64,000 nucleotides of DNA from Cloeon dipterum (taxonomy: Eukaryota > Arthropoda > Insecta > Ephemeroptera > Baetidae), in NCBI RefSeq assembly GCF_949628265.1, contig NC_088788.1, positions 15,190,001-15,254,000 of the forward strand, written 5' to 3'. Shown piece after piece: positions 7,309 through 64,000 of this stretch (position 1 is its first letter; each line of letters starts with the position of its first letter). A program made the translations under genes and the position numbers. The notes beneath the pieces are model-generated. The model made no database searches. It had not been told where the DNA came from and worked only from the letters and a program-made list of their open reading frames with translations.

Positions 7309-10300
7309 ATGGCCTCAGCGTCAACCGCCCTAGATGCCTTTGACGCAGCGTTCGCGGCGGCGCAGTTGGCCGAGGAGGAGTACCTCGTCAGTCGAGAGCT
7401 AGAGGAGATCTCGAGCCGCAGCAGGCCGCAGCCGCACGACCTCCATCGTTCGCCATTGCCGCCGGCTCACCCCCACCCACACCACCCCCACCAGCAGCAC
7501 CCCCACCAGCAGCACTTTTCGGCCTCGACCGCCCACTACGCCCGCGCAGGTGCGTGTACCTTCTCACTTTTCTAACTATACCCAAGGTTGGCAAGGTCAT
7601 GAGTAAGAGGTTTAGAACCTTTGAACCATGTTTTACATCAATATTAGAAATCAATCACCGTTTTTCATTAATTTTTTATTTCTTTTTCAATTTGACGAAA
7701 ACGACCTTCATCGCCCTCCCCTGCATCACCTCTTAGAGATTAATGGAGTTTTATATTTTTTTTTATTTAAAGACACAGATCTTAGGACAGTTTATCCAAT
7801 CACTTGGTTAGGGAAGGCCAAGACGACTTCAATTGCTGCAGTTTTTGCTATTCTGACGGTATAACAACTTGAAATTAGGCTGTGAAAATGTTAGCGAAAA
7901 TCGAAAAATTCATGTTTCTGAGATTCAAAGTTGAATTTTACGAATAAAAATTCAACCACCATTTTGAAAATTTTCACACAAATTCACACGAAAGTGCTTT
8001 GAGGATACAAAAGATTTTTAAAAATGGTGACTGTTACAGAAACACCTATATTTAAAAAATCATTGATGACTTTAATTTTGCGTTCATTCAATCAAGCATG
8101 AAAAGTGAATGCAAAATGCACACAGTAATATTATTTTGTTTAAATCAGACCACTAGGAGAAATTTATTGTAAATTGTCTCTAAGAAATCCTAGAAATCTT
8201 AAAACCGAAAACTTGACAAACAATTTCAACCACGAATGACTACCGGTGAAATTTCCTGCATTTTGCTTGACGTGGGCCAAAACCATGCTGTGGCTGAAAC
8301 TTCCTACGAGAGAAGGAAATTATGGAATTCCAGTCATAGAGAGGGGTCTAACGTGTGTTGTTGACGTTTATCACTCGTGTTTGTTGCGCAGGCGGAGTCG
8401 CTTGCGAGTCGTGCAGCGGTCGAGGCGTGGGCCTCCACTCAACCACGGCCCCGTTGGCCGCGAGCGGCGCGCGGGGCAGTGGCGGGCTGATCAGCGCCGC
8501 GGCGGCCGCGGCGCCGTCGTGGTGCGTGTACTGCGGCTGCTCGCAGGTGGTGGCGCCGACGGCGGCGGCCAACGGGCAGTGCGCGTCGTGCTCACCGCAC
8601 CGCAGGGCCGTGCAGACGCTGCAGCGTGGTCCCGCGTCGGAGCCGCACCGCCGCGGCGCCTACTTCGAGGCCGAGGATGCCGCCGCCTACCCGGACGCCA
8701 CCTCTGCCCGCCACCGCTCCGGACAGTACTACTCGCCGCCCGGCACCTCCTACACCATTGTCGAGGCCAGACCTTCCGCAAGGGACCTGCCGCTCCGCGA
8801 GATTGGATTCAGGTTGGTGTCAAATTTGTTGCTTTTTTAAGAGCGTGAAATTGGATTTTAATTTCTTCAATTTTTCTTCGACTTTGTGGATTTCTCATTG
8901 CGGTTACTTTTAAAATCGGCGTGTAAAAATTAAAAAGCTCTTTAATTTCAACATTGACTGGTTGGCTAATACGGGCTATTTTTTATCATTTATATATTTC
9001 TTCTATTCAGACTATTTATTTTTGCTATGTTGGTAGCTGCGATTAGCACCAGCAACTAATTAGTATGAGCAGGTCAGAACTGGTTGAACGTATAATGTAA
9101 AAAATAATTTTTATTTGTTTAAAGGTATAAAAAAATGTTTTTATATTTTGCTGTTGTTCTGAATGTGGGGATGTATAGGGCTTAGTTGCTCTGCTGATCC
9201 GCAATTAAATTACTTTGAATCTAAACAGCACCAATTCACAATATTTAATTGTAGCTTTGACCAAAATGAGAAAACTGGTGATTTTTTTTTAATTTTTTCT
9301 AATCTAGGTAAATGGGAAAATTGTAAAAATTGTTAGGAAATTTTTAAATTTCAACAGTAAACGAGAGAAAGCAGTTTTATGGTAAGGAATGATTGATACA
9401 TTTTATTTAAAAGTATTTTGTAAAGAGAAAGGAAATTATATTCCATATTTCCAAAGTTATTATCAAACGGACATACTGTCGTAAATTTTCCAGCGGTAAA
9501 TACAATGTCTTTTAATTTTTTGTCCTCAAATTCAAAAATCCGAATCGAAGAGAGGACCAATATCATAAATCATAATATGTAAAAATGTTTTAATTTTCAC
9601 GCATTACGAGCAATTTATAAATAATTGTTGATTGTTATTAAATTTAATTTGATGCAATGCAGAGTTTTAAGTATGTGATATATTTAAATTATTGAATTTT
9701 TCATATTGGTTACTGACTGTTTTCTGTGTGCACAATCCAAATAAATTGTAAATACGTTCTACTGCTCGAACTTTTCCGGAAGCTCGCTTTTTCCGCTTGT
9801 CCCGATCTTTTCCTCCGCAACTTTTTGGCACTTCTTTCACTATCTGTTGCTCTTTATGTTGCAGTTATCTTTTTGTAAAACACTAGCCGGCCAGCCAAGC
9901 TCGGCTCAGGTAAAAACTGCCCCCGCGCACGTCACTTCCGCCCTCATTTGCTCTAATTCAGTTTCCGCTCGCTCTCCGCTCCCACCATTATGTTCTCTGC
10001 CCACTTTAATTGCCCAAGAGATAGCAAATTTCCGCCGGCTGACCTTCCCGCCGTGTTTGTTCTGCCCCGTAGGCCGATCAACGCGCGAGCCGCGAGCCAG
10101 TCGCCGCCGGTGCGTCAGAGTGCGTCGGCGTCGCGCGGCGCCGCCAAGCTGGGCAGTAGCGGCGGCGCCGCCATCTCGCCCGAGCAGGTGATTCGCATGC
10201 TCAACTCGTCGAACCACGGAGTTGGCGCCGGCGGCCCCGGGGGCGTCAAGGCCCGCGACCAGCCACCCCCGCCCATCAACATGATGAACAACATGCCGGT

Positions 10301-13300
10301 GCGCACCGTCACCATGAGCAGACCCGCCGAATCCGCCCACGGATTCGGCATCTGCGTCAAAGGCGGAAGAGAGTCAGGTTAGTTTCCTATACTCTTTCTA
10401 ACTGTTCACTTTCCATACGCAAAACCGAAGGAACAATTTCTTGAAGCACCAATGAAAAAAACACACAAATTCATGGATATGAAACTTTTTAAAATTGTAT
10501 CCACCAGTAATTTAAATAAGAAAGTTAAATATCTTCAAAATCTAAATGTTTACTGTCACTGGAATTTCATTTTATAATTTATTGTTATCGATTCCTGAGG
10601 GTTGAGTTATAGAGGAGAGCAGAATCACTCTATCGACAATGCGGCACGTCATGTCAAACTTTTCGCCTGAGTGATTCGACTTCCTCTCAAAAAATGACCT
10701 TCAGAAATCGATTAGCAAAGTTAAAAACTACAATTTCAGTGCTGCTTAAATAGACACAACAAATTGTTTCACTATTGAAAGAACGGTCGCACAGAAATAT
10801 GTTTTTTGTTTTGTTCAAATTTCAACTGTTGGGAAGTTCTCAGAGTTCGAAGCAATCAATTTACAATTTTACAATTTGCGCTGCGATAAAAGATTATTTT
10901 CTACTTATATGCATTATTGGCGTAAAAATATTTCATTTGAAATCTTCAAACCCAAATCGGTACAGCAAATCGCTGTAGAAACTAAAAAAAATCTAGACTA
11001 ATAATTTTTGCTGTTGTTTCTACCGCGATTTGCTAAACCAATTTTGGTTACCAGAACGTCAAATGAAATCCTTTTACACGAAGAATGCACAACAAAAGGA
11101 TTTAATCTTAAATCGAGTGATAGTACCCGAAAAAAATTGTAAATTTGCGGTGTTCTCTCTGCTGGTGGCTTTGAAAACTAAGGACCTTTCCCATGTGAAT
11201 TATTTTTTTAATGAAGCTCTACAATTCTTTGAATTTTTCTCGAAAGAGTGACATGCATCTAAAAACTTCCAATCATCTACATTTATTTTATACCATCATC
11301 AGACTTTCTATGTATGATAAAAGAAATGAACCAAAAAAAGGAGGACGTTGGGTGGCTGAGTATGGAAAACATATTTTTGCCTCCAACGATTTGCATAAAT
11401 AAGAGTGTGTGTATTCGCGCTGACCGAGTTTCCCGTGAGCATGATAATCAAGTCGGATTCGACACGGCAGTAAACTCGACTCTTTTCTCTCTCGTGCATG
11501 CTGAAATGCATTTTAGGTTTTTTTCTTTTCCAACGACGTCGACGATACATACATACAAAATAATTTGATCCGCGGTTTCCTCGTGTCCCTCTTTCTCTCT
11601 TTCTGTGACCTGAATTTCTACGTTGGTGTATGTGTGCATTATGAAATCGTTCTTGCAATTCTCTTGCTCTCTGAATATGATTGTCTGGCGGAGTGTTTAT
11701 GTTCATTTCTTTCTCTCTCTATCTGTTTTTCTGTCCGTTCCATTCGCAGATGCCAAAGGTGAGTTGAGAGCCTTTTCGATTAATAGTTTTTTCTCTCCTT
11801 TTCCTCTCTGCACTTCTGCTTCGAGCACGATTTAAATTAATAGTTTGTCACGTCTTACGGCACTGATTTTAAAGTGGCTTGATGCTTCTTGAAATTTTAA
11901 TGTTGAAACGATTAGCAATATTTAAATTTTACATTCATTGCATATATGTAAATGTTATTGGGTTTTTTAAATACATAAATCAAAATTTTCCTCGCATTTT
12001 GTGAAAGTTAAGCAATCACACTATTTCTTAATTTTGCTGTACTATGGAGAATTTTTAATTTAGCGGGTGGGCTATAATGGCGTGGGATGGTTCAAAAGCC
12101 TTCTTTTTTCACGGTCTGTATGGAATGAAAAAGCATCAGGCTCCTTTAATCTACACTTTCTGGATGAAATCTCTCTTGCATGACCCTTTCTTGTTATTCG
12201 TTTTGGCGAAATTGTGTCTCGCATGACTTATCTGCGTCGCATTGCGTTCTTACTGCAGTGCCAAGTTTGCACCCCCGCGCGCGTCTCGCGGCTGCCAGAC
12301 GCATTCCTCTAGCTCGATAATTAGCTCTTTTTGCGTCTCTTCTCTAGGCTGCCGCTCTCTGCCAAATGCCCTTTGTCAAAGCGGCCGGAAAATGGCGCTT
12401 CTCCGTACTCCAACGTTCCAATCCGAACGAAAATAAAATGTTAATCCCTCCTGCAGACGTAGACTTGACATTCTACAAAGACCTTTTCCTCCTTTCTCCC
12501 AGACAGCTTCTATTATTATTTGATGTTTCAATATTTTGTTTCTAACTTTTACGTAACACAAAAATCAAATTTCATTCGATTTCTCCAATCATTTTCATGG
12601 AGCTAATAAGCCAACAGATATTTTAAATATTGGTTTGAATAAATTTGAGGGACTTTCAAGGCGATTTTTTTAACAAAATAGACTTTCTCCCTTACAATCT
12701 TCGTAATATCTTTCCCCTTTTTCAAATTTCCCACGCAGGCTGCGGAAAAAATGCGTCTTTAACTTTCTCGGCGGTCGAAGTTTGTTGGCAGCGTCTTGGC
12801 GGCTGGCGGCGAGTAGATAATTTTGTCGGGGCGAGTTGATAAACTAATTTGTCAGTTGCGAACGAACGAAGGAACGGCAGCATATGCATTGGGCCGGATC
12901 GATTCTGCGCCGCTGAGCGAATACGTGACCTGCCTTTATTAAGTGCTGATCGACCTTCCTCCTTTGTTGCCGGCCCCAAATCGAGTCCAACAGCACATTG
13001 TTTGGCCCTTGAACCCCTTCTGTAACCACCCCCGAATCGAAAACAAACACAACCCCCGATAGAATGAATGCTGTCTGAGGCGATGAGAATTTCATTAGCA
13101 AGAATTTTCTCATGCTGTAAATATAACTGCTTAATTTTTAGAAGGTCTGAAACAGATCAAAACTTGTACAGAACCCTTTGCCAGGCAAGCGTGATGTCGT
13201 CAAAAGCGAATTAAAGATATTTTGCTGCAAATTTCTTGGGATATGTATTAAGTTAAAACTTAACATTGAAGAAAGATGAAAGTAGATAAAAGCGTGGAAA

Positions 13301-16300
13301 TAAATTAAGCCGCTTCCCTTTGATCAAAGATAGATTAGAGGCAATTTCCACTTTGGGATGTGGGGCAAAAAGTTGGTTTTAGTGTGTGCTATTGTCGGCA
13401 GAGTTGGGGCAATTAATTAGCAGGGCGTTGCGGAGTTGGACTCGAACTCTCTCTCTAGACATTCCGCAGCGCCATAAAAGATAGCGTGCAATATCCTGTC
13501 GGCCAGAATTTCCCATCTAAAATGCACGAATCGCTCGGAAAACACGCCACATTTCATTTTCCGCAAGGATCGATTCGCTTCTCAAGGCCAGTCAAAACTC
13601 CGATTCTTCTCGCGGCAAAATTGCTATCTTTGACGCAGAAAGCATCTCTAAGTCTAAGATTATAAGTTAACTCAGATTACCAAATGGTTTAAATTTTAAT
13701 TAATTTTTTCATTCCATTTAACAAACGGCTAAGCAGTATTAGCTGCTTTATTGAATTTTTCAAATTAAAAAACTTGATTAAATTCACGTCATTTTGCTCT
13801 ATATTTTCTCTCATTCTCTCTAGCGTGACATAAAATTAATATCGATCCCCGGGAACAGGACTTTCTCGTGTATTCTGTTTGACGCAAAAAAGAAGATAGT
13901 TGAGAGCAGAAAAGCGCCGCAAACAGCTTTTTCCCTCGGCGAATGGACTTTTGTTTGCAGCAAGAAAATGTGTCAAAGCTGAAATTGAGTCTCAAAGGAA
14001 GCATGAAAGGCTTTTGTTCGCTGTTGGACACCAGAGAAATGGCAAAAAGGCCCATAAAGTCTTAGAGTAATTTTTAGTCTCTTGTTTTCAGCTAAATGAT
14101 CGCAGAAATTTTTAAAATGAATACTCAATGCATAGCTTGAAAACTGTTACCCCGCCATAGATTGTTTATCGGTTAAAATATGATTGATGTATATATTAAT
14201 GTAAAATATGAAAATCAATCTTTCGAAGGAACGAGATATTTTCAAACAGTGTAAACCGGTGCTATATCGATATTTATTAAACTATCCCAAATTTTTTAGA
14301 TATTTCTATACTCTTGTACAATATTAAAATTATGATTTATTTATGATTCCATCTTGCAATTTATTTTCCTATTTAATATTTCGGTCTTATCCATAAATTC
14401 CCTTGCGGTTAAAATCTAGCGTTACATTAATGAAATGAATTTTCCAACAAAGGATGGCATTTGAAGCAGAGTTGGGAACCGTGCCCTGCAGCAAAAAAGA
14501 CAACGCAACGAGGGTCGCACGAGCTATGCAAAAACTTGAGAATCATTAATTGGGTGAAGAGGCGGAAAGAAATGGGTCGTGGATGTGGAGCGTGTGTCTG
14601 TCTGGAGAGCAATCGATGGCGGCAGCTGATCATTAGTAACGAGTGATTAACCCTTTTGGACTTGGAGAGCACGAGGGGTGGCACACTTTCTCGAGAGCTC
14701 CTCCTGCAACCTCGCTCGCTACTCGCTCTTCGCGAGAGAGAAAAAAAGCCCGACGCAAATCAATTTAATCGCGCGCGCAAGCAGCACACAGCAGTCTACT
14801 TGGACCTTTGCATCGTCGAATTGCCACACAAAAAATAAAGAGACTTGGCTTTCTCACATCCAGGTCATCTGTCGGCGCTTTGCAAACAAGTGCAGCAGAC
14901 ATATTTGACATTCTCGGTGCCAATTTTACAGTCTCGGCGGCGCCGTAAAATTTTCGCTGGCCCCGTTCTTCACAGTTGTAAACCTGGTTTTCAGCTTATT
15001 AAGCATGGGGCTCTTGAGACTTTAGAGAGCAGTAAATGTCTGCAATAGAAAATTAATCACAAGCTTGTTAAAATGTCACAAGGATTCTCGAAAGTTTTAT
15101 ATATTAATATAAGAATTTTTTAAATTCTAGCTATTTAAGTAATTTTATTGGGAAAAATTTGCTTCTTGGGAAGACAAGGTCTTCATAAAGTTTAGATAAA
15201 TATAATCGAAAAAATCGTTCTGTTGATCCAAGTTAGCTCAACAGAAGAAATGACAAAGATTAACAAAATTACATAACACCTGCTCCCAAAGGGCTCACTC
15301 GTTCATGATGCCATATTCGATGATGCAATGCTGCAAAGCCGTAGTTTGCGGTCTGGGCGATAAATTGTTCTGCGTCTCTGTTTTGCGCCTCGCGCGTTGA
15401 ATCGAGATTGCAATCGTGGCACAAAAAGCCGAATTAATGACCGCTTTTTGCTCCGTGCAATTGAATTCATTATCACCAGACGAAAGCCATCAGAGCAGAA
15501 TTTAGTCGCAAATTGTTGTGCTCTTGTTTCCGCACGCAAAGTCCATTTGCATACATTAAAAATGAAACTAAGCTGAATTGATGATGTGTACAGCAAATTG
15601 AATGATCATTCATCCATTATGAGTTTCACTTGTGATATAATTATTATTATAACTAAATCAAAACGTATTTATAACTTATTTTAAGAGAATCCCTGAAAAC
15701 AACATAAATGCGTATAAAATTAAAATAATATACTGAATTTTAGATTTTTATGTGGTTTTTATTTTATTTTATAATTAATGATGACATATATATGTGTGTC
15801 ACATCATTTCACGAAAAAAATGACATTCAAATTGCTTGGAAGATTGTATGGTATTTTAGACCACAATGCATAATTTGATTCTAATATTAATTACAGAAGA
15901 AATTAAGTGAAAAACTAAATTGAAGCTGAATATTCAAATTTTACCAGTACACGCGGGAATTTATGGAATGATGGCTAGACTGATTAATAATGATGTCAAA
16001 ACAAATTGAGAAATATTTTTGATCATACAAGCAAAAATAGAAAATTACCATTTCCAATTAAGAAATTTTCCTCAATTTGTTTTAATGTCACTAAAAGATG
16101 TTACAGTTTTGTTTTTCAAAGATTTTTGAAAATTATATTTTTGCAATGAACGCTGCAATGCAATTTACGGAGTTGTTCATCTCAAATATCGGTCAATGTG
16201 ACGTTGTTCTTTTGCCGGGATAAAGGTCACGTGGCAGCGGGAATTAAGGCCGATTTGGACGAGAAATTGCGGATCGATGCGTGTCTCGTTTCCTTTTACG

Positions 16301-19300
16301 ACTTCCAGCCGATTGAGTTTATTACCGAATTCGCAACTCTGGACCGAATGCACTTTTGCTGGCAGCGAATTTTCCGTCGCATTAACCCTGACTGCTTTTT
16401 GCACTCTTCCCAACTCTTTGTGTGTATGTTAGCATAATTTTCGCAAACGAGCACAATGCATGCATCAATTTTTCAGTTATGCTGCCCGATATAGATTTTC
16501 GCTGTTGAAAGTTAGTTGGTGCCAAAAAAATAAAATAAACTCGCTGGGATCATGAGAGCGTATTTTATGGCTCATAAAGTGCCTGTTGAGCAGAATTGGC
16601 ACACGCTGCTGCCTGCCTGAAAAACAAAGCGAGACTTATTCGCATTAAATGCTCTATCGTTCGAACGAGTGCCACGCTTTTTTGTGGTTTTTGTAAATTT
16701 CGTTCTGTTTAATTTCCCAGAGTGTGAGCTCTAGTATTTGGCAGAGACGGAAAACCGCAAAGAAGCGGGAAAACGCAATAAATGTGAGGGGTGGGAAGTG
16801 TGACGAAAGAGTTTGTTGTTTCAGGCGTGGGTGTATACATCTCGAGGGTCGAGGAGAACAGCGTGGCCGAACACGTCGGCCTTCGACCCGGAGACTCCAT
16901 CCTCGAGGTCAACGGAATGCCCTTTGGCGGGGTCAGCCACGACGAGGCCCTCAAGGTTAGAATTAATAAACAAAACGTGTCTTCTGTAAAGACCGATTTT
17001 ATTTTGTTTCGTCTGAGACTTAAACTCTGAATAAAATTCAATCAGCATAGAACGCGATTGCGTCACTTTTGACGTCATTAGTGCCTTTGTTTACCTATAA
17101 AGCGCCTGAAACGAAGGATGCTGCAATTTGATTCTGCCACTATACGAGGCAGTTAAAGCTATCGCATCCGTTGTTTAGAATTGATATGTACCTCATTGTG
17201 ACGTCAATGAGTGGTTGATGCTGAAGATTAGCGTAGAGCCCCTGTCGACTTTCATTGTACAAACAACATTTTTTTAACGCCACCTCATTTTTTTCTGACA
17301 GTTCCATTTTTTGCAATCTAATTATTGAGTTATAAAATAGTCTAATTTTTTAAACATACACCTAAGCATAGTTGTAATTATGTTTTTCCTTCAAAAACAA
17401 ATCTATGCTGCCTTTCACATCACATCTCCCAAAGTCCAAACACCACAAAAAAAGAAAGATTAAATCTCTCGGTTTTAGCCTTATTTTTAACAACGTTTCG
17501 ACACTATCATGGAGCCGTTTAAAATAATAAGACCCAAGACTATTACCGAATATTTTACGGGATATTTTATTTTAGAAAATTGTCTTTGACATATCAAGTG
17601 TCACATTCATTGAAATAGAAATCTAATAAAAATAAACCATGATTTGTGTGCAGATGCTCAAAACGTGTCGCAAGGTGACGATGACTGTGCGGAGCGCGTC
17701 GGGGGGCGCGGGGTACGCGCTACCCTCGGCGTCGGCATCCGCGGGGGCGGGCCAGCTGTACACGTGGACCGACCGGCACGGCCGGCCCGTGTCGCCGCCT
17801 CCAGAATACGCTTCGGCCCTGAGCGGGCCACCCCCACTGCCGCCCCCGGGCCCTGGCGCCAGGACCTGGAACTTCCACTCTGCTAGAAGTAAGGAGAGAA
17901 CTAGAAAGGTCAGTCACAACTATTTTATTTCTATGCTCTGATTAGAACAAAAAATATTTCACGCATGAGGTGGTCAACACTAAAGCATTAAACAGTAAAC
18001 AGTTCAGGTTTTGCGCATATTTGATGAAAATTTTTGTTGGTAGTCAATTTTAATATATGGTGCTTGTCACAGTACTCGCATCAAAATTTACTCTTTGGAA
18101 TTTATTCAGCACTTCCCGTGGGCTATGAGCTCACCAGGTCCAATTATTATAATGTAAACACAAAAACCTGAAAAAAATGATAGCCATGATAAGCATATTG
18201 AGTGAAAAACGTCCCTATAGTAAATGAGGTTTAACCCAGTTCACATTTTTTGACATCAAATTAAGCAAAAATTTATATTTAAGTTCTTTTGAGCCCCTGG
18301 ACGATATCAAGGAAGAAACGCGGCTTATTTTTACATTACTTACAAAGAGTTAGAACCTTTGGCAACCGTTCATTATTACAAAACGAGATGTTGTATTTTG
18401 AAATACTTTCTTACAATAGCGGGTTATAACTTTCTCCGGTATCAAAGTTGTAAAAATTCAATTAAAATTTTATTTTGTATTAAGATTTGAAGATAAGAAA
18501 TTGTTTTCAAAAGCAAAATTGTTTTTGCAAAAATTTATTTATTCGTTCAAAATACTAAGTGACCTCTTTCACACTATGCTGATTAAAATACAAATGAAAA
18601 AAGCTCAACATTAGATTGGACAGGAGGATTTAAATAATTGCTTTCGAGCGGAAAAAGGTCAAAGTGGATTTCTGCGTTGTATTGTCCGCGTAGTTAAACG
18701 ACGGCCGCTGCGGCGGCGGCGGCGGAATTCGACCTCACGTGACGATTTGCATATTATTGAGCCCACGGCTGGAGACACGCAGTGCAGAGCAGTGAATCGC
18801 CCAAATTGGCCCGATAACGACGTGTCACCTTCAGACTCCCAACCAACAAAACCAACTGACGACGCGCTAATTGCTCCACATTTTCCTCCTCGTTTCCTTC
18901 CAATTCCTCCGCTGCTTTGTCACCGCGCCAAATTAGGTCCAAGGCGTCAAAAATCACTCTAACCAAAAGAAACTGGCTAGAAATCAATTCTCTTTAGCTA
19001 TTCAAGATTGCCAGTCCTTTTTTACTACACTAAATGAAATCAGGGCTTAAAAATGTTTTTCATTGAACAACACTTACAGAGATTTTTTTGTATTTTTCTA
19101 ATGTTGCAAGTAAAGACAATTCAGAAGATAAGGGGATTTTTGCATTACACAGACAAACATAGCCTATACTATTTAAAAATATAATACATGGAATCTTCGT
19201 AACTATGTGTTCTTGGTAAACTTTTAATTAGCTGTAGTGATGGATTTTTTTCAATAACCAACACCTTCCAGAATTGAAAAAGGTCGGTTGATATCTTCTG

Positions 19301-22300
19301 TATATCAACGTTTTTTCTCGTGAATTTATTAAATGGGTTTTCTTGTCTGTTATTTGGTGCAGGTGGAGCTGAGCATCGAGCCGGGTCAGAGTTTGGGTCT
19401 GATGATCCGTGGCGGCGTCGAGTACGGCCTCGGCGTGTTTGTCACCGGCGTCGACCCGGGCAGCGTGGCCGAGCGCTGCGGCCTCATGGTCAGTATGAGT
19501 GCATTGTGTGAACCTTGGCTAACGCGCAACCCGAGAACAACAGCAGCTGCCAGTTCCCATACTCGCGTCTTTTTCCTTCCATTTGCTTGGGAAAATTGAC
19601 ATTTGTTTGTTTTGCAACTACTCAAAGATGGACTCATTCTGTTACTCTCTCGAAAACATTCTTTTTCGAAGAGGAAAATCATTCACCGATTTTTAGCAGC
19701 AGAACAAAAATTCAATTCATTACAGCATAAATAAATTCTTTCGATTTGCAGCTATTTTTTATTCAGAGTTGGATGACGGTGAAAACGGTGGTGACGTTTA
19801 AGTTGGCTGCTCGGTTGAAAGGTGGATCGATTTGCATTTCAATTAAGTTGCAAAGCGAAAGTCGGTCTTTCGATATCAGATGGGCCAAGTGCAGCGCTTC
19901 AATAAATAAGCGCGCGCGGATGAATGGGTAAATATTGATTTGCTGCCCGCGACGACCTCCATCATGTTCAAACGCCGAATCAAACGGAAAACACATCAAA
20001 CAGCCCGTGAAAAAAATTAAAAGCAGTTTTCTAGAATTGAATTATTCACGCGGCCAGTTAAAACTTTGAATATGCGCCTTTTGTGTTTTGTTGTTGTTGT
20101 TGTTTGAGACATATAACTTTTGCACTGGCGAATCACTTCAGTTCGAAGATTGAAACTGGTGTTTGGCACGCGATCCTGCGGAAGTGAAAAGTTTTTCCGG
20201 CGAAACGACTTGTTTACGTCGGTTTGGACGTTTGCCATTTCGCTCAATCAAATGCACAAAGCACGGTGGAGAGAACAAGAGGCGACGCAGCCGCCATCTT
20301 GCGTGCCGAGTGGCAACAATGCACCCCTTTGTTGCGAGAGCGGTCAATCGATTAGTTGTTTTGACCGTGAACTCGGCTTTTTCCGCGCCGTACAAAGTGA
20401 ATTTTCTGCGCCGGAGCGAAATCAGATTCACCTGCTGTGTGTTGTTGCGGAGGCTGAGAGCGAAGCGTGTTTTTAGTCTCGGCAGATTTATAGTTATTGC
20501 TGCCTTTTCGTCGGAACGCTTTTTCCGTTCGCCGCAAAACTCTGCATGCGATCAGCGTTGTTCTCGGAATGCAGGAAATCTAATTCGCCAAAACGCTTTC
20601 AGAGAATGCCAAAAAAGCTCACACAGGCAATTTCACGACATCAATGGCGCGCAGGTTGCATAACCAGCGCGGCGCTCCTATCTTGAATCTATAATAGTAT
20701 TATGTAGTTTTGTTGTCTTCAAAGCTACTCTTCCACAATACGTTCGTGTTTATCATTTTCATTTATCGCCTAGATATAAAATTAATCTTTACCGTTTATC
20801 ATCAACTCTCGCCGTTATTTTTAACGTACTTATTGTACGTTTAGTCAGACTTAAAACATAGAAAATGACTACCGGCAAACAATTAAAATATAATTTTAAT
20901 AAGGAGCAATGTCTCAATGCAACAGTTAAATTTTCCACGCGAATAAAACATTCCATGAGATTGCAAAAACTTCATTAGTTTTTAAATGACGAAAGTAAAT
21001 ATTTTATATTTCCATCGATTGAAATTTCACAGTTAACTTTGCCCTTTTTGAATTCAGGTTGGTGACCAGATTCTGGAGGTGAACGGCCAGAGCTTCATGG
21101 CGGTGACGCACGATGAAGCCGTGAGCCAGCTCAAGTACCACAAGAGGATGAGTCTGATCGTGCGTGATGTGGGCAAGGTGCCGTCGTCGGGGGCGCCGCA
21201 CACTGCCTCCTCAGGGCTGCTGGGTCATGCGTGGGAGACGCACCTACCACATACGTCGCGCAGTCCCGCGTGAGTCCCTCTTACGGCCATCGCCGATCCT
21301 AGGGTCTCACCTGACGGGTGTTGGTTCGCAGGGGTTGGCAGCGCAACCTCGAACCAAGTGGCGCTGCACTCCAAATGGTGCAGGAGAAGGCACGAGTCAT
21401 CCTGCCGCACCCTGAGTACGCCTCCCTCGATTACTATCAGCGTGAGTACGCGGCCAGGCAGATGGACGTCGAGGCCTTTGTTGCCGTGCTGCTGGAAATG
21501 CTCAACACTCCTGAGAAGGTATGCAATAATATTTAGAAGGGTCCAGAGGGGAAATTACAATTACCAGGTCAGGGTAAAATTATCTAATATAATCAGCTAT
21601 TGAAGGGTGGCATTATCTCCACATTGTGAGGGGAGGCATATTCAGGTTATGGAGGGGAAATTTATCAGGGAGTCAAATTTTGAAAGGTTATCGTGGAAAC
21701 ATATCCGTATCCATGCAGCAATCACTGACTTTTTAAGTAAAGTCTGGAGGGGTGCGTGCATGCATCAGGTTCCTACAATAACAATTGCTTGATTCACCAC
21801 ATCTAAAGAGTGGGGAAAGGATGCATGTGTCAGTTTGCAGTCTAATGAAATATCCGTGCACAGTACACCCTTTTGATTGAACTGCGGGAGGTGGTGCGAC
21901 CTGAGGACAGAGCGAGGTTCGACGAGCTTGTATACCGAAGAGAAGCGGAGGGTCAGAGATGCCGGGAGCTGCGTGATCTTTTGGGCCACCGGGGCGGCCA
22001 GGACCACCTCAGGGTATGTGCCGGCGACCTGTGCGGAGTTTGGACACCCGTAGCGACCTAGTGGTTGTCTAATCCGAGTGCTTTACAGGTCGTTTGAGAC
22101 GCTAACTTTTGGCACGTAGTGCAATGCTTCCGAAGTCCCCCCTCCTAGTAGTTGACCCTTAGTGTGTTTAGGGGGCTTTTCCATCGCAGAAAATATATCC
22201 AGAGATTAGAGTTGCATGCAGTGTGGTTTTTGTCTGTTTCTCTATCTCCTTTTTTTCGGAACCGTGTACCTGTGGCGCACTTGAAACCTAAAATGAGTCC

Positions 22301-39014: not shown

Positions 39015-42000
39015 ATGCTGCTGCTGCTGTTTGCGTTGAGCGTCGGCGCGCTGGCGCTCGGCCCAGAGTCGTCATCTGCGGCCTTTGTCGTCACGGCGCA
39101 GCGCGACCTCAACCTGCGCCCCGTGATCGGTGCGTGCGTGCAGTCCCACCCCCGCGTTTCTTCACTCAATCCACTTGGTACTTGCAGGGGTGCTGTCGCA
39201 GGAGCTGTCCAGCTCGCTCGAGTCCGTGTGGGGCGAGTTAAACTACACCAGCTTCGTCGCCGCATCCTACGTCAAATTCCTCGAGGCCGCCGGCGCCAGG
39301 GTCGTCCCTGTCAAGTATATAAAAATACTTATTTAAACGCTCTAATTTCCTCCAATTTTCCCCTTGGCGTTGCACGAGACGCAAATTTTACTGTTGTTAT
39401 GGATCAGCTGGCTGAGTTTGGCAGCCATCCAACTTGAGCGTGTCTGCTTTTCTTCAAGGGGATTATTTTTTAATGAAGTTTCGACTTGCGGTTGATGTTG
39501 AAATTGCTTCAACATCAACCAATATTGTATCGCAATCATTTTTTTTAATTGCAAACAGTAAAACAATAAGGTGTCTATTAAGAATCCATTTTTTGCTGGA
39601 AAAATTTAACTGTGTATCTCAACAAAAAAATATTGATTAGCACAATTAGGACCTGCAGATAAATTTAATTTTTTATTTTCTTTTTGGCATTCGCATGTTC
39701 TGCGCTGCCAGGACGAGCACAGCATACCGAATAAAAGCTCCAGTTGTAAGATGGATCTTATTACTTATTATGTAGTATAAAAGCAACTATAGATTGAGTA
39801 AAAAATTATGATACATTGGCACTAAAATATGGTTTAGCCAAAAATCTTTCTTAGAACATTATTTTAGCCAAATAAGAAAAAATACGTTAAATTCTTGAAA
39901 TGATCACTTGGGATTTCAACAGTTTTTTTTTGGTACAGGGACTTCCACACTGCAAAAAGGCATGGACCTACAAGGCTTATAAGCTTGCATGCTTCAATAA
40001 TGAAGCATGCAGCAAGAATTGTGTTTGTATAATCTCTATGCTCGATCGGCGTCAACAATTTGACAGTATAAAAATGTATTTTTCATTGTTTATTACATAA
40101 CACGAAAATCTTGTCACCTGTTTCCAATAACAAATAATATGTATCTTAGGCATATAAATTTTAGATAAACCCCAGAAATTGATTTACGTAAAAGAAAAAG
40201 AGTATTTATGTACAATTTCCTATTTCTTTCATTCACCCTCGGTCGCTACACAGTTGATGCTCACACGACAGGCTACAAATCTGTTTTTTTATTACAGGAT
40301 CAACCGTGATCTCTCCTACTACCAGCAGCTCATCCATTCAATCAACGGGTGAGTGCCGTTTGCTCGTTGCAGCAATAATTATTATAAAAGTGAAAGATTA
40401 AATTGATCTTGACTTTGCGTTCAAAAACTGATAATAATCTCACGTAATACGAATCCACTTAACTACACTCAATGGCCTTGCAAACAGAAAATATTGCAAA
40501 ATTTGAAAAAAATTGAATAGCAAACAATTATTTAAAAATTCCATCGTTGTTTTAAAAAAGACAAATTTTTAACTATTTTTATAGTTAAATTGATATACGT
40601 TTAAAATATTTTGCAAGATTGCTGATTCCGGGTGGTGCCAATTTCTACAACACGTCGGGCTATGGCCAAGCCGGCGAAATCATGTACAACCTGGCCGTCG
40701 AACTGAATCGCCAGGGCGACTACTTCCCTGTGTGGGGCACCTGCCTGGGCTTCGAGCTGCTCGTCTATCTGATGGCGGGGAAGGACGACCCGCGGATCGT
40801 GTGTGATGCCTGGGACAAAGCCGACCCGCTCGACTTTGAACCAGGTTTGGGTTGATGAAGTCATAATAATTCCCACATTGAATCGTGACTCTTTTGCTTC
40901 AGGATTCAACCAGAGCAAATTGTTTGCACCCGCCCTGCCAGCCGTCGTGAACATCCTGGCCAATGAAGCGGTCACCGCCAATTTCCATCGGTATTGTGTC
41001 ACGAAAGAGGTAATATAAGAAATATTGAGATTGATTTTCAAACGGCAGTTTGATTAATTAGACTCTAAAGAGTGTTCACAAATCAAAGAGGACAAGTCAA
41101 AATTCATAAAACATTAAAAAATAGCTTGTTGTCAAACTTTACTATGTAAGGAAGAGTGAAATTAATTTTCATCTGAATTGTGTTTTCCACTGTAACAATG
41201 CTTGCGACATATTATCGTGACCGATTTCGAACCATTTTCTCCTCAATGACGAATGTAGTTCATATCCTTGTTACGGGGAAACTTCTGATTGAATTGAAAT
41301 AAAATATTATTTGTATTATAAGGGGGACAAGTGCCTGCGAATTTTTGTAAAGCACGCCAGTCTGCAACCAAGTTCCTAAAATAGTTTTAGCAATTTTGGC
41401 TTAAATTCAATCACCAATGAATATGCATATTATATATTTATGGTGAATGAGATATTGCAACCAAGGATTTTCTGCGTCTTTCGAAAAAGCTATGATCTAA
41501 TCTGAGGCTCATAACAGTCTTAAATTTGAGTCATAGGTGCTCATTTGGCGTTTAAAAGTAACTCCCAATCAGTAATAGTCGACCATCTCAAACTCCCAAT
41601 CCTAGGAATGAGCATATATATTCCTAAATTTCACTTAACAACAAATTTTAAATTAATTTAAATTTAATTTTAACATATAACAACAAATTCAATCTTATTT
41701 TTTATATTATTTTTATAGCTGATGAGTTCGGCCAATATAGTTGACGACATCGCAATTCTGGCGACAAGCGTGGACCACGAGGGTCTGCGCTACGTCTCGG
41801 CCTTTGAATCACGCACCATGCCCATTTACGCGGTGCAGTTTCACCCTGAAAAGCCAGCCTTCGAATGGAACACCAGGGAGAAGAACATCCCGCACACGCC
41901 AAACTCCATCTCCGTCTCGTCTTACTTTGCCCAGTTCTTCGTCAATGAAGGTTGGAAATTTTTTTATCAAATATTCCGGAATATCAATGAATAAATTTTT

Positions 42001-42802: not shown

Positions 42803-45458
42803 ATGTCGATGTGGAGGGCGGCTTGCGGTTTGCAGAGGGCCGTTAGCCGGATGTCCTGTCCCCTCCAAAGGGTAACACTGAGTATGGCGTCCCTTCTTAC
42901 ACATATCACGTTTCGTTACGTAATTCGCAGACTCGGCCCGTGAAGTTGCTGGTTGGCCCTTTGGCGAGGATGCCAGTGCGGGGCGCCGCAACTGTCGCCG
43001 TCGAGGGCTCGCAGAAGGCTGTGGGCTGGTGGCTGATGGGATGCGGAGGAATGGTGTTCGGCGCCGTGGTGCTGGGCGGCGTGACGCGTCTCACCGAGTC
43101 CGGCCTCTCGATGGTCACTTGGCGCCTGCTGGGCGAGCACCGTCCTCGCACCCAGCAAGAGTGGCAAGACGAGTTTGCCCGCTACCAGCAGTTCCCTGAG
43201 TTCCAGATGTATGTATTTCTTGGTAAAACTGGTACTAACTGAAACAAATAATGTGGGGAAGTGAGGAAACCAAAAATAATGTTTTACAAAAAGTAGCCCT
43301 GGGTTAGTTGCGCTTAAAAATGGTATCTCTTTTAGTATTTGATTTATATAATTATGTATTCGTTTTTGGCAAAATTATTGAAATGGTGTAGTATTCAACA
43401 AGCTAAGAGATATAACCTTTTCGGGATGTTAACACGGACCACTACATAGTACAAAATTTCAACCAAGCATTGTTTTCGCGTTACAGACGGGACGTTTTTA
43501 GTTTAGAAAAAAATTATAACTGACATTTTTGCACAGTTCTTTTTTATAGGAATCTCTTTACTCTGTTTTAATTTTCTGGCCATTCATTTAATAATACCCC
43601 ATTTCCTTTGTATAAACCATTAAATTCTCCTATTAATGGCTCTTTCTTTTACAGCAAAAATAAGGATATGCGCTTGGAGGAGTTCAAGATGATCTGGTGG
43701 ATGGAGTACCTGCACCGTCAGTGGGGCAGAACCATCGGCGCAGCATTTTTCCTTCCGGCCGCCTTCTTTTGGGCCAGGGGCCGCCTCAGTCCGGGTTTAC
43801 AGCGCAGGGTGATTGCGTGTGGCGGACTTCTTGGCGTACAGGGCCTCCTCGGCTGGTATATGGTGCGCTCAGGCCTCGAACATGAACGTTTCAGTGCGCC
43901 TGACAGCTCTGAGCCCAGGGTGTCGCAGTACCGGCTGGCCGCACACCTCGGTACCGCCTTCCTCCTATACACGCTGCTTCTGTGGAATGGTCTTGACCAG
44001 CTGTTGCCCGCCCAACCCATGCCCCAGGTCTGTGCCTATTTTTTTCCTGAAGTAGGATTTCAAAGAATAATTTGCAAGTTATTTTTAAATTCAGGGCACT
44101 TTTTTAATTTATTTGTATCCTATTTTGAGCATTATTTTTTGCCCTAAAGTTAACAATAATTTGTTAAGGTTATTTTCCTTTGACCCTTACTTGAGCTATG
44201 GGTAGATAAAAAATTCCCAGGAGCATAGATCCCCCTCCATTGGCAGAGGAGGGGTCGTTTGTGTGCATACCCTCTTTAACTCACTCTTTACATTTAAATT
44301 GTTTGCTATTCAGGGTGCGTCAGCATTAGCAGTGCAGCAGGCGCGACGCCTTCGAGGAATGGTGCACGGATGCAAGGCGGCCGTGCTGCTGACGGCAGTG
44401 TCCGGCGCCTTTGTGGCCGGCCTGGACGCTGGTCTGGTGTACAACTCATTCCCCAAGATGGCAGACAGGTGGATCCCGTCGGACGTGCTGGCCATGTCGC
44501 CGCCATTGCGCAACCTGACTGAAAATCCCACCACTGTACAGTTCCAGCACCGCGTATTGGTCAGTATTTTGATCCTAAGTTTTCTTGTCCTGACCTGACT
44601 GAGTCTGATCTACTATCAGGGCACGGGGACGCTTTTGCTAGTGACAGGAGTGTGGCTACTTGCCAGGAGGCGCACCCTTCCGCCCAGGGCGCATACAGCT
44701 GCTGCTGCCGCCGCTGCCATGGCCTGGATGCAGGTAAACCATCTTCCTTAAGATTTCTTTAAACATTAATAGGTTTTTATTTATGATTAGGTGTTTAAAA
44801 ACTCTAGAACCATAAAAATATTTTATTTAATATTGACGCACGGTAGCTTTTGAAAGGGTGCGTTAAGGGTTTATTAGGGAGGAAATTTAATTTAAAATCA
44901 TTTTTAAGGTGATTTCAAACATTCAGGGCCTGCTACAGTGCAATTAGTGTTGGAAAAATACATTGATTAGTTAAATTGTTGAAAATATAACAGACTATAG
45001 AATAAGTAAATGTACTCTTTGATTTATGTTCATTTTAATTAAATGCTTTTAGCACAAAAAAATCAATTTTGAATTTTTATCAGTCTGGAATCCTGCGATA
45101 TTTATTATACGTTAGTGGAATATTCAGTTGATGTCTATTTTTGTTTTGCCTCATTTGGCTTTAATTTTATAAACATAAATAGTTATTTTTTTAAATGCTT
45201 TTTATTCTTCCTTTCTATTTTAATGTTGCGAAGTTTCCATCTAGACATCAAATTCACGCATCGATATCTGTAGAAACTATTGAATAATGTTGAGCAAAAA
45301 CTAATTTGTCATCATTCCTGTTTTAGGTGCTGTTGGGCATAACGACCCTCTTGACCCTAGTGCCAGTGCCCATAGCCGCAGCACACCAGTCAGGCTCTTT
45401 GATGCTGCTCTCATTTGCCATCTGGCTGTCCCACGAGTTGAAGCGAGTGCCAAAGTAG
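42803..45458 (+). CDS. COX15: Cytochrome c oxidase assembly protein COX15, heme A synthase, 6 exons
   Basis: Exons 42803-42871, 42931-43208, 43655-44027, 44314-44559, 44620-44733 and 45327-45458 give 403 aa; human COX15 has 410. The protein sits in the mitochondrial inner membrane and oxidises a methyl group of heme O to a formyl group, making heme A. The N-terminus ([16 protein letters not shown]) is Arg-rich like a targeting peptide. Candidate heme-ligating His residues fall in family motifs: EYLHRQWGR (His136), AAHLG (His213), QFQHRVL (His319) and AAHQSGS (His380). [13 protein letters not shown] and the Asn-Ser-Phe-Pro-Lys-Met stretch are also typical. The first intron is only 59 nt. Met at 42803 or 42809 suits a targeting peptide better than the upstream in-frame Mets. 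Confidence 0.95.
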
Positions 45459-45940: not shown

Positions 45941-48900
45941 TCAGTACCAGTAGGTCATTTTCATTGCGCCGGATGAGTCGTAAGGCGTCTCTAGCACACT
46001 CGATTGGCGCACCAAAATCTTGGACTGCCGCGCGATGCTCTTGCGGAGGCTCCTGCTGCGGCCACCGAGAGGAGTTTCCTCTGTTGCGCCCTCTGGCGTT
46101 GTCACCTCGCCCGCAGCCGCCGTAGGTGCTTCCTCCGATGTTACGTCGTGCAGTTCGCTCAGCTGCACGCTCAGGTCCTCATATGAACCTTGCCTGCGAA
46201 TGTTGAAGAGTTGATTTTAGTAAGTCCAGATTTTAAAATATTTGATTTTTTACTTTGAAACACACAAGAAAGAGGACAAGAATTTTAAATTATATAATTA
46301 CAGAATCCAAAATCAAATTTGATATAGGCACGATAAAATTAGAATTTAATCCTCTCCTTGGCCGGGATTTTGATTCATTATTTTCCAAATCACAAATTTA
46401 AGAAACAAATTCATCTAAACCAACCAATTAATTACATTCAATATTTTACAGTAAATTCTACTCCATCAATGGCTACGAGGGGAACTAACCTTAATTACTA
46501 TATGGGTTCAAAAGAAACAGCTAAATTTGTAAATAATTACCATTAGAGCCAAATCTACAACACTAATCATACTGATGTTCTGGCTTTGTAAGTGACTTGG
46601 CGTACAACCTAAAACTTGTGCAAAGATACAATCAACAAAATGAACGAAAATTTCAAGGGGAATTAGGAAAGTTATGTCTGACCGAGAGATGGGCACGCAT
46701 CGCAGGCAGTCTTGCATTGTGAAGTCCTTGCCAAACTCCTCGCCCTCCTCCACCGTTTGCGGCAGCTTTGTGTGCAATGTTTCAGGCAGTCGAAGTCCCG
46801 CCAGTCCGCCGATGACCGAAATCACCCCCATCACCACTAGCGGAAGCACCAACATCTCCATTCCCTACATTTTGCGAAAAAAAACTACATTCAAGGAAGC
46901 TGTTTTTTTAATTGAAAATGAAAAAAATTAATATTTGTCCGTATTGAAATAATTTGAAATCACATCGCCGACATAATTCTGATCAGGAATACATCTTGAC
47001 AAAATTTAACACACTTTGGAGGCGCGCAACAAAGCAGTGAACTAAGTTTGAAGCTTGAAAATTGCAAACAAAAACGGAGTAATTTTAATTGATTTAATTT
47101 CAAGATGTTTTCAAAAATGAAAAACAAATTTGTCGAACTATTTCATTACAAGGCGTACCATCTTTGAAAATTTCCTATCTCATATTTCAGAGTTTTAATC
47201 TTCCCTTCCATTCCGTCACCATCATAAAAACCATGCTGTTTTATTGGTATATTCTTTGTTATTTTATAATTGCCTGAGGGTTAAATTGGAATTTCAACAT
47301 CATTTTAACATTTGTAATTAGGAGCGTGAAAGATTTGTCGAACATTAATACATATACAAACCAAATAAACGATGAAGGGGATGACAATGAGACCAAGGCC
47401 ACTGATATAGGCGCTGGCACCAATGCCGATGCCTCGTAACTGCGTTGGGTAGAGTTCACCAGCGAAAGGGTAGATGATAAGAAACGAGGCTGAGATGGCG
47501 AACTTGGCGAATAGGTACAGCACCAGCGTCAGCACCACAGCATCTGTATATCATATTTATTTATCATGTATGAAATAGTTAAGAAAATGTTGCTCAAAAT
47601 AGCTCAAATAAAAAGTAGCAAATCGATGAATTTTATTTTTGTGTACCTGCGGGAAGGAGGACGGTGATAATGCAAGCGATCCCGCTGACGACCATGCAGA
47701 TGGAGAGCGGCCAGCGGCGGCCCCAGCGATCCATCACGGCCCAGCAGCAAAGGTAGCTGGGGATCTCGACCAGCGACGACAGTAGGAAGCTGAGAAAGCG
47801 GTCATTGCCTAACGCTGGTCCGTAATAGCTCAAACCCACGTACACCATCTCGTTTGCAAACCTTTCGAGGAGAAATTCATTTTTAAATTATGATCCACCA
47901 TCGATTATTTTAAATTGAAATGCAAAAAATTTATTATGAACAGACACTAAATTTTTATTTTCCGCGATTTAACAAAAAATTTAACTACCAATTGAGTGTG
48001 ATGAGGGTGGTTTTGAGACGCATATTAGGCGTCTTGCACAGGGCCGTGACGCCGGGTCCTTTTTCCGCCTTGCGTTCCTCGCTGCGGGTCCTCTGCAGCA
48101 TCATGTGTTGCTGCACGAGATAATTTTAAATCGTTCAAACACAGTATTTGTCTGCTAATTACTCGCACCTTGAGCTTCTGCTTGAAGGATGCAGGCAACT
48201 CCTTGCCATTGGTCGCAGCAAGCTTTTCCAAAATCAGAGACGCTTCCTCCAGCCGCCCTTTCGCTAGCAACCACCGCGGACTTTCAGGGAGACATCTAAT
48301 CAAAAATACGTGTTTATTACTTTTGATTTTGTATTGTTATTATGACTAACCGCCAATAGAAAAAATAGAGGAGAAACGGCGCAGAAGTGGCGAAGGCCAT
48401 TATCTGCCAGTCGCGAATGAAGTAGGTAATGCCAGCAAGCAAAACCAGTCCGAGAGTGTAGAAAATGCAGGTGAGTACGGTAACAAATGAGCGATAATTG
48501 GCGCCGACCAGCTCCAGTGCTGAAATTCGATTCATAGAATTCAAAACCGATTTGAAAATAAACAGTGCTCAATAGAGACCATAACGCATGGAAGCAATTT
48601 AAATTTCCCTTTAAGTTTTATTGGTGTAGTTTTTCAATTTTATTCTTGTTTTGTAATAGGCAAATAATAATAATTATTACAAACAGGACTACTTCATCCT
48701 TAAACACAATTCTGTTTATTTTTAAGTTTGCTGCTGTTGGAGCCAGTTGTGTTTTTCTGGGAAAGCCGAAACTTTGAATGAAAGATTAAAGGATAAAGTT
48801 TTTAAGACAACGAGGAGAACGTTCATTTTAATTATAATATCTAAGATGTAAATCTAGTGCTTTTTAAAGTTGATATTAAGGAAAGTTTAAGCCTTATCTT

Positions 48901-53883: not shown

Positions 53884-56309
53884 CTAATTCTTTTTGGTGA
53901 ATGTGCAGCATCTGACGTCACCAAATTCGGCATCCTTTGATTGCGCGCAGTACGGCGCGTCCTCCGTGACCAGACAGTACATGCCCTGGGCGCTGTGAAA
54001 TTATTTGCAATTTTAAACTCTAGATTCAGTGTAGGTCAGACGGAAACTTACTCGTCACGCATGGTGGCGCCGACGAAGACGGGCTCGGCCTCGCGCTTGG
54101 TGCCCCTCGGCGGCTGTGGGCAGCGGTTCACGCATGCCTCCGCCTTGCGCTCCACCCTCTGGAACAGCGACTCCGAGAAGTAGCACACGGACGACGCGTG
54201 GCTGCACAGCTGTCGATCTATAGGAATAGAAAGGCGTCAGTTCATTGTTCTCCTAAATTTTAAAACTGTAAGATTATTGGAAGATAAATGTCAAATAAAA
54301 ATGTAGATTGATAAATAAGTAACGGTTGTCATCCCATACCCTGGCAAAGCTATTTTAGGCTTATTTTTAAGTAGGTTTTGGGTTGATTTCTAAATATTTG
54401 GTGGACCTGCAGGACAAGCTATAATTGGACCCGTCCATACTGTTCAAAAGTTGAAATTTAATTAGCCTCAACATGTTTCTGCTCCAAAGTGCACTTTATT
54501 CATGATATTAAATTTTAAAAAATGAATTACAAAAGTATTACTAATATTTGAAAATGAGATGCTTATTTTAATTTATGATAATCCTTAGAAAAATCCTCAC
54601 CAGCTAGGACCAAAATGTGTTAAGACTATTGAAGTTTCAACTTAAGAAAATCGAGGACATATCTGATTATTATTCATCCTGTGCTTATGCCTTTTCTCGA
54701 GTTTGAACTATCGTTTGCCAAAAAACGCATTTAAATTTGAAATAAAATCATTCGAAGACTCACTAGGAGCGTCCTTGCAGGCGGGCTGCCTTCCGTTGTT
54801 GACGCAGACATCGGCCTTTCCGACGACCTCGCCCTCGCCGTAGCGTCTGGTGTCGGTGTGGATGGCGTGCACGGTCTGGGCGTCATCTTCATCCAGCCGC
54901 TTGTCCTTGTTGCGTCTATTGAAACGGGCACCGGCCGGATCCAGAGCTGAGAAAAATTTCGAATTTAGTTAAATTGGACAGGCTGGTGAACAAGTTTACT
55001 GACCAAAGATCTTGGCCATCTTCTCAGGAAGGAAGTTAGCGGTGATGCCACAGATGTGGGCGCCGAGGCTGAAGCCGATGCATGTGGTCTGTTCGGCAGT
55101 GACGCCGTTCTTCTTCAGATAGGTGAACACGTCGGCGGTGCACTTGGCAATCGGCTCGGCGTTCTGCTGGGCCGCGCGGTCGCACCGCTCCTTCACCAGC
55201 GTCGGGTAGTCGGCCGTGATCAGGTTGTACGAGCCGTTCTTGATGTACGCTGCAAGAAAGAGGGGTTAAGCCCGCCGTTTCTCGAATGAGAGAAACACTC
55301 ACCGTCCCTGAGGATGACCGTCGGCATCACGTTCTCGCCACCCTGGTAGCCGTGGAATAGGAATACGGTCGGTTTGTTCACGTCGAAGCCGCTCTGCTCA
55401 AACCACTCGTCAGAGGTCGTGTCAAACTTCATCTTCTTTGTCTCTCTGAGGGAAAATTGATAAGTTTGAAAAATTTTCATTAAAAATCCATTCCAGGAAT
55501 AAATTTAGATTCAAAATTAATATTATTGCTATATCATTTTACTGTAGTTGGTAAAGCATATTGAAAATTCTCTCTGGAGAGAAAAAACACAATATCAACC
55601 AGTGTAATTGTTGTAGAAAGTTAATATTTGCAAATATGGAAATATGTATTCATTTAGATGTTCGAGGTGTTAAGCTAAAACTAGTTGGGAAATAAAATTG
55701 ACACGCTTGGCAACATGGAAATACAATGTCCGGATTTAATTTATAAAATTTCAAAAGCCTCTATGGTTTTAAAAGACGTACGATTCCTTTTCCTAGGAAT
55801 CAAACCATTTTTTAAAGAACACTCACCCGCTGTAGAGGTAGTAGTTGATATCGCTGTCAGGGCAGGTCAGATTGGCCTTCTTCCTCACGCACTGCGGAAT
55901 AGAGATGCCAGGGATGCTAGCAATGGCCGATAAAATTCCACTGGCTGCCGGCGGCGCCTCTGTCACCACATCAGGGTTTTCAGTTTCGCCCTCGGCCAGG
56001 GCCTCCTCGACGGGTCCTTCGCCCAACTTGAACGTGGAAATGTCATGCACCTCATCCTCCGCATAGACTGCAAATAAAATTCGTAGATTTATTGAAAAAA
56101 AAAATTATTTACACTGAAATTAAAAACAATTTTAAGTTATCAGTTTCAATGTTCATAATTCTAAGTTATTTTATGGTAGCTTAAAATAAAAGTTGTACAC
56201 TGAAATTTGATATTTCCAGATAAAACAACAGCCGATTTGAGGAAAATATTTTCGTACCTGCGAGGATAGTGAATGCGAGAGCGGCGAGGGCGAGCACCAG
56301 TTTGACCAT
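53884..56309 (-). CDS. Secreted pancreatic-lipase-family protein A, 7 exons
   Basis: Exons 56309-56258, 56067-55827, 55445-55303, 55249-55004, 54946-54764, 54217-54052 and 53992-53884 give 379 aa. A signal peptide (MVKLVLALAALAFTILAVYA) is followed by an acidic stretch and the alpha/beta-hydrolase domain with the oxyanion-loop HGYQGG. The catalytic triad looks complete: Ser206 in GFSLGAH, Asp230 in ALDPAG, and His295 in LCSHASS. The C-terminus is short and Cys-rich (PYC, then FGDVRCC). It probably hydrolyses lipid esters or phospholipids outside the cell, for example in the gut or haemolymph; the substrate is not readable from sequence. Exons 4 and 5 (246 and 183 nt) have exactly the same lengths and phases as in lipase B. 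Confidence 0.93.
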
Positions 56310-63891: not shown

Positions 63892-64000
63892 CTCACAATA
63901 AAAATACTATATTATGTGATTTGACAAAATATGAAGATTTGTTAGCACGTGTACACATTATACAAAAATTTTGTTAGTGTAAAAATTTATCGAAATACCT
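63892..64000 (-). other. Lipase C intron running off the window
   Basis: AT-rich sequence upstream of the acceptor at 63892. The remaining exons of the gene lie beyond the window end. Confidence 0.6.

Follow-up and report, generated by a model that had tools for sequence, protein, structure and literature searches.

In flies and mammals, the eMIC domain promotes neural microexons (PMC8797185), i.e., exons that we define here as at most 30 nt long. According to the accessible text of that study, fly eMIC exons combine weak splice sites at both ends with short flanking introns, have a UGC near the 3′ site and CUAAY branch points, and show a median length of 31 nt; they are poorly conserved in other insect orders, and microexon turnover is fast in insects. 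In the available excerpt of PMC8042270, 128 of 411 fly microexons are constitutive and 283 are alternative, and the 5′ splice site of the constitutive ones is stronger than the upstream 5′ site, which is not so for the alternative ones. How a very short insertion can alter a PDZ domain is illustrated by PTP-BL (PTPN13), where the splice form PDZ2as carries the residues VLFDK in the β2-β3 loop and shows a nearly ten-fold lower ligand association, as stated in the part of PMC4365404 that is open to view.

Alternative isoforms are also known from the family of PDZ scaffolds to which the gene described here belongs, and which includes mammalian whirlin and its fly homolog dyschronic (dysc, CG34400). 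As far as the accessible text of PMC3330124 goes, whirlin/dysc genes make short isoforms, the isoform classes (long and short) differ mainly in their PDZ content, and an isoform said to be “differing slightly” through splicing is named with no further description; an insertion in a PDZ1 loop is absent from the dysc and whirlin isoform descriptions in that text. Exons of 6 and 3 bp are recorded, in the excerpt available of PMC8268283, for CDH23, which is also an Usher-complex gene but encodes a cadherin and not a PDZ scaffold. Here, we describe a candidate 9-nt exon in the PDZ1-coding region of a whirlin/dyschronic homolog from Cloeon dipterum and compare it with these systems. All positions refer to the window, that is, the whole stretch of 64,000 nt of DNA that was analyzed.

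Results

An insect whirlin homolog with a candidate exon inside PDZ1

The gene that harbors the candidate appears from its predicted protein to be an insect whirlin homolog, and we regard this identity as firm, its three PDZ domains being closest to human whirlin PDZ1 to PDZ3. Specifically, the best PDB match, among the matches listed, of PDZ1 joined without the nine bases is 1uez (6.4e-17), annotated as KIAA1526, which we take to be whirlin, while the joined PDZ2 finds 1uf1 (whirlin PDZ2, 6e-29) and the joined PDZ3 finds 6kz1, a chain named Whirlin (5.7e-25). In the part that separates the PDZ tandem from PDZ3, a plausible harmonin homology domain can be read by eye from 21315-21518 and from 21864 onward, and Pfam gave no match to the first of these exons. 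No RNA family was found in the window by Rfam at gathering thresholds.

The sequence-only reading of this DNA had proposed a 9-nt segment with its own splice sites, phase-matched (1-1) to an intron of about 6.4 kb that splits PDZ1, and a second reading of the sequence and of the exon join bears out each of these elements (Table 1). The intron lies between the first and second bases of a Gly codon and is closed by the acceptor TTTCAG/GCGTGG at 16825, the slash marking the border. At the candidate itself the sequence reads ...CCATTCGCAG/ATGCCAAAG/GTGAGTTGAG..., with canonical AG and GT borders, and the introns flanking the nine bases would measure 1372 and 5066 nt, as calculated from the coordinates. 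Joining the exons with the nine bases gives GICVKGGRES-DAK-GVGVYISR, without a stop or a change of frame, and omitting them gives GICVKGGRESGVGVYISR. The proposed insertion of Asp-Ala-Lys, which turns RES-GVGVY into RES-DAK-GVGVY, is thus confirmed at the level of the reading frame, and we place it in the β2-β3 loop of PDZ1. A search of the genome with 701 bases around the site returned one match, the site itself (the search skips simple repeats).

Table 1. Features of the candidate exon and its PDZ1 context, and other predicted genes of the window (slash, exon border)
Feature	Position	Strand	Remarks
Candidate 9-nt microexon ATGCCAAAG	11750..11758	+	Would add Asp-Ala-Lys in phase
3′ splice site CAG	11747..11749	+	
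5′ splice site GTGAGT (AAG/GTGAGT)	11759..11764	+	
AG-free zone	11694..11746	+	53 nt
Downstream flank, pyrimidine-rich	11765..11858	+	Possibly a regulatory region
Upstream exon end	10300..10377	+	PDZ1 start VRTVTMSRPAESAHGFGICVKGGRES and base 1 of the Gly codon; donor GTTAGT at 10378
Phase-1 intron	10378..16824	+	6447 nt; interrupts PDZ1 where the β2-β3 loop ends
Downstream exon	16825..16955	+	PDZ1 GVGVYISRVEENSVAEHVGLRPGDSILEVNGMPFGGVSHDEALK; Gly codon common with the upstream exon
Last PDZ1 strand	17654..17695	+	MLKTCRKVTMTVRS, in the next exon, which continues downstream
COX15-like gene	about 42847-44595	+	Pfam match on 43572-44144, 126 bits
Sugar-transporter-like gene	about 46865-50760	-	Pfam match on 49143-49436, 42.8 bits
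Several lipase-like genes, by eye	54711-63892	-	Pfam Lipase on 54999-55265, 26.3 bits, just below the cut-off of 27

A donor close to ideal and an ordinary acceptor core behind an unusual tract

As a measure of splice-site strength we used 24 introns of the window, set by eye from neighboring reading frames of recognizable genes. The exact borders were picked with a matrix for a generic insect consensus (the generic matrix), and three introns with a score margin below 3 were dropped, which left 21 reference introns; from these we built trained matrices with the generic insect consensus as prior. The trained matrix is not independent of the generic one, because the latter chose the exact borders. 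Sites of comparable strength were counted in 528,000 strand-bases, comprising the window and 200 kb of another contig on both strands.

With the trained matrix, the donor of the candidate scores 8.31 bits, a value that none of the 21 reference donors reaches and that only four donors in the 528,000 strand-bases attain or exceed, the one at 11759 included (five with the generic matrix). The core of the acceptor is less exceptional: it scores 3.94 bits with the trained matrix, and 12 of the 21 reference acceptors are as high, while the generic matrix gives 6.42 bits, reached by three of the 21. What sets the acceptor apart is the tract before it, which runs for 53 nt without an AG and consists to 81% of pyrimidines (85% in the last 40 nt), with six UCUC/CUCU words and, near the 5′ end of the zone, two yUnAy words that resemble branch points. 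Among 3031 AGs preceded by an AG-free zone of at least 40 nt, eight match the tract in both length and pyrimidine content, the AG at 11749 among them, and five of the eight are CAG. Both sites had been called near-ideal from the sequence. For the donor this description holds; for the acceptor it applies to the rare tract but not to the core, so that the site is best described as a donor close to ideal combined with an ordinary acceptor core and an unusual tract.

Neither site finds an alternative partner of use nearby. In the 300 nt 5′ of the donor, one other acceptor scores above -3 (at -2.9), and its use would define an exon of 242 nt that shifts the frame and brings in a stop; in the roughly 300 nt that follow the acceptor, all other donors score 0 or less.

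A second pyrimidine-rich run (11765-11858) lies directly 3′ of the candidate donor. The first 100 nt 3′ of the exon contain six UCUC/CUCU words and two UGC, and since this run adjoins the donor, UCUC-rich sequence is present on both sides of the exon.

Chance expectation in the intron, the window and the genome

The 9-nt segment is the sole candidate of 3 to 51 nt in the intron that scores above the median reference pair. In the 528,000 strand-bases, seven pairs of 3 to 51 nt score as high as it does, against 1.9 expected from distant pairs, i.e., from sites 500 to 5500 nt apart, and among those seven only 11750-11758 is both a multiple of three and at most 27 nt long. From the same distant pairs, the number of frame-preserving pairs of at most 27 nt that would be as good is 0.0043 for an intron of 6447 nt with the trained matrix and 0.0006 with the generic one. 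Per 64 kb, the corresponding expectations are 0.043 for a single strand and 0.085 for the two together (trained), or 0.006 and 0.011 (generic). A simulation of 3000 introns from local dinucleotides gave a comparable picture: with the trained matrix, 39 of the 3000 contained any pair of 3 to 51 nt as good, seven a frame-preserving pair of at most 27 nt, five such a pair that was open in phase 1, and none one of 9 nt; with the generic matrix, these numbers were six, two, one and zero. Taken together, the two nulls predict 0.0003-0.004 frame-preserving pairs of at most 27 nt and of this quality in the intron.

The expectation is different on the scale of the genome, of which 190 Mb in 10 contigs were searched with a pattern that was written from the site's own interruptions (N at the purines of the tract) and is therefore biased toward 11750-11758; the controls of 8 and 10 nt used this same pattern. 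In its looser form it found seven sites of 9 nt, six of 10 nt and five of 8 nt, with 3, 9 and 4 in the reversed-pattern controls, and thus no genome-wide excess of 9-nt sites over those of 8 and 10 nt. Requiring MAG/GTRAGT left one site of 9 nt, which is 11750-11758, one of 10 nt and none of 8 nt (reversed controls 2, 1 and 1). A very strict version of the pattern matched once, at a 3-nt segment elsewhere, and twice when reversed. By summed score the candidate is the best of the seven 9-nt matches with both matrices, the runner-up with the trained matrix reaching 12.0 against 12.2. Because the off-length and reversed counts are similar, about one such site somewhere in 190 Mb corresponds to the chance level.

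Two other sites came to light in these searches. One of the seven high-scoring pairs of the 528,000 strand-bases, the 51-nt segment at 40298-40348 (+), has an acceptor of 8.3 bits and a donor of 6.9 bits and reads, by eye, INRDLSYYQQLIHSING; it may be a genuine short exon that belongs to a gamma-glutamyl-hydrolase-like gene, and Pfam gave no match to the adjoining piece 40589-40852. The frame-breaking 10-nt site that fits the pattern at the stringency of MAG/GTRAGT, TGCTTGAAAG flanked by TTTCAG and GTGAGT (G000:C1:33014703-33014733, minus strand), may be due to chance or be a frame-shifting microexon.

Comparison with fly eMIC exons

The SRRM_C/eMIC domain (PF15230) is found in this genome with 35.1 bits against a cut-off of 27, and above this cut-off in none of 14 prokaryote control genomes. 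It lies at G000:C1:20434396-20434980 (minus strand) and seems to be interrupted by an intron, at the step from position 55 to 56 of the profile, with only the first part above the cut-off.

The candidate shares with fly eMIC/Srrm234 exons its very small size, the preserved frame, the UCUC-rich tract and the long AG exclusion zone, in a genome that has an eMIC domain. It differs from them, as they are described in the accessible text of PMC8797185, by its strong donor and average 3′ core in place of weak sites, by its long introns, and by an AG-free zone that contains neither UGC nor CUAAY, the nearest upstream UGC being 85 nt off. Neuronal and alternative use is thus a guess, because several of the fly eMIC features are missing and the donor pattern resembles that of constitutive fly microexons.

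The predicted insertion in the β2-β3 loop

Aligned to the solved PDZ1 of whirlin, from which we take the strand names by analogy, the residues DAK fall in the β2-β3 loop, before the strand GVGVYIS, and the skipped form aligns to whirlin without a gap at this point. The Pfam PDZ score is nearly the same for both forms (65.6 bits without DAK and 64.6 bits with it) and some chains of known structure score higher with DAK, which suggests that the fold tolerates the insertion. Among the best 60 of 273 and the best 60 of 264 matches, scribble chains improve with DAK (4wyt, from 48.1 to 52.5 bits), as does one GRIP1 chain (2qt5, from 42.2 to 48.1 bits), the GRIP chain 1p1d stays the same (37.7 and 37.6 bits), and the chains of human whirlin PDZ1 and PDZ2, PDZD7 and harmonin become worse (e.g., 1uez, from 64.5 to 56.9 bits). 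These shifts suggest that the loop length of the DAK form occurs in other PDZ domains and not in the solved members of the whirlin family listed.

The comparison with PTP-BL PDZ2 that the sequence-only reading had drawn gains support from the available part of PMC4365404, since the VLFDK of PDZ2as is likewise a short splice insertion in the β2-β3 loop of a PDZ domain. The two cases differ in that PDZ2as, a form known to exist, gains five residues where the loop begins, in place of the GG hinge, whereas here three residues would be added near the loop end, the GG is kept, and the form is a predicted one. Given the retained GG and the position of DAK near the loop end, the effect would perhaps be milder than in PDZ2as. 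By this analogy, it is plausible that the insertion changes ligand binding.

For flies, qPCR primers for dysc that are, according to their authors, common to all isoforms (accessible text of PMC3330124) translate as GICVKG and SGLGVYI and cross the junction without an insert, so that the presence of the microexon in flies is not indicated. An insert in other insects would be compatible with this, because fly eMIC exons are little conserved in other insect orders.

Discussion

On the strength of these sequence features, we think it probable that 11750-11758 is a real microexon, namely a frame-preserving 9-nt exon of the whirlin/dyschronic gene. That it is spliced at all is inferred, as are its alternative rather than constitutive use, its tissue and any effect on binding. 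In the mechanism that we propose, the spliceosome would recognize the nine bases via the strong donor and the long UCUC-rich AG-free tract, and it would probably be helped by intron-bound factors, as ordinary exon definition takes more than nine bases. Inclusion would yield an mRNA for a PDZ1 whose β2-β3 loop carries DAK close to its end, and skipping would yield PDZ1 with the usual whirlin-type loop; if PTP-BL PDZ2as is a guide, the most likely outcome would be two forms of PDZ1 with different affinities for their ligands or a different choice of them. It is tempting to go further and to propose that a lineage-specific neuronal exon of nine bases toggles the loop length of PDZ1 and re-selects its partners, e.g., ion-channel or Usher-type ligands, but we consider this extended version doubtful.

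How convincing the candidate is depends on the space from which it is thought to have been drawn. A donor-like 9-mer that happens to follow the CAG of a pyrimidine-rich stretch would be a pseudo-exon that is rarely, if ever, included, and we take this to be a serious, if somewhat unlikely, explanation. It gains weight from the genome search, where the looser pattern shows no surplus at 9 nt and chance would supply about 0.5-1.3 sites of this grade and length in 190 Mb, so that roughly one would be expected if the choice had ranged over the whole genome; moreover, the site was picked from the whole window, for which 0.043 or 0.085 pairs are expected (trained matrix), and perhaps from more windows. 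It loses weight within the intron, where 0.0006-0.0043 pairs are expected and open ones arose in five of 3000 simulations (trained matrix), where both the phase and the open frame fit, and where one of the top four donors coincides with a rare AG-free tract. If the exon is real, it could also be constitutive, with DAK fixed in the PDZ1 of the lineage and no splice switch; this case is contained in the probability of a real exon and is, on its own, an unlikely one. The donor, at 8.3 bits against 6.0 for the upstream donor, behaves as in the constitutive fly microexons of the available excerpt of PMC8042270, but the 3′ site does not exceed the downstream one with the trained matrix (3.9 against 4.6; 6.4 against 1.2 with the generic one). 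Constitutive use also sits poorly with the gap-free match of the skipped PDZ1 to whirlin, with the fly primers, which read the insert-free form in the accessible text of PMC3330124, and with the predominance of alternative microexons in flies (283/411).

The remaining readings keep the donor or the pair of sites and dispense with the microexon. Were the donor at 11759 to end an alternative first exon transcribed from an intronic promoter, the acceptor would be there by coincidence; the frame has a stop at 11611, followed by ATGs at 11641 and 11677 from which translation would run on into the latter half of PDZ1, and short isoforms are known for whirlin and dysc (PMC3330124, accessible text). 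The product would, however, start inside PDZ1 and lack β1-β2, and its frame would largely be translated pyrimidine tract, which makes this reading very improbable in our view. We give even less credence to a recursive-splicing site, at which the long intron would be removed stepwise and the nine bases would not be kept in the mRNA. Ratchet points are described, in the excerpt available of PMC8605326, as lying in long introns and joining an acceptor to a donor, and the site resembles them in its location in a long intron and in having both elements. Such a mechanism needs AG/GT, and as the exon begins with AT, no donor would be regenerated at the junction and 11750 is not a ratchet point; nor does any AG/GT site in the 6447-nt intron have a summed score above 7.

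We found no earlier report of a whirlin/dysc PDZ1 microexon in the open-access literature searched, judged from listings and excerpts, nor of a splice switch in whirlin PDZ1 for flies or mammals, as far as the accessible texts go. The kind of exon is already known, both as a microexon and as a PDZ loop insertion, and the instance in an insect whirlin is new.

If real, the candidate would be one of the smallest exons, of a kind that ordinary gene annotation overlooks, and it would alter the ligand-binding loop in a conserved sensory and synaptic scaffold. It would be an instance of the fast microexon turnover in insects noted in the accessible text of PMC8797185, and it would stand beside PTP-BL PDZ2 as a natural example on which to test how the length of the β2-β3 loop tunes PDZ binding. 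The neuronal toggle of loop length considered above would, if true, place a splice switch inside a scaffold of deaf-blindness and circadian output.
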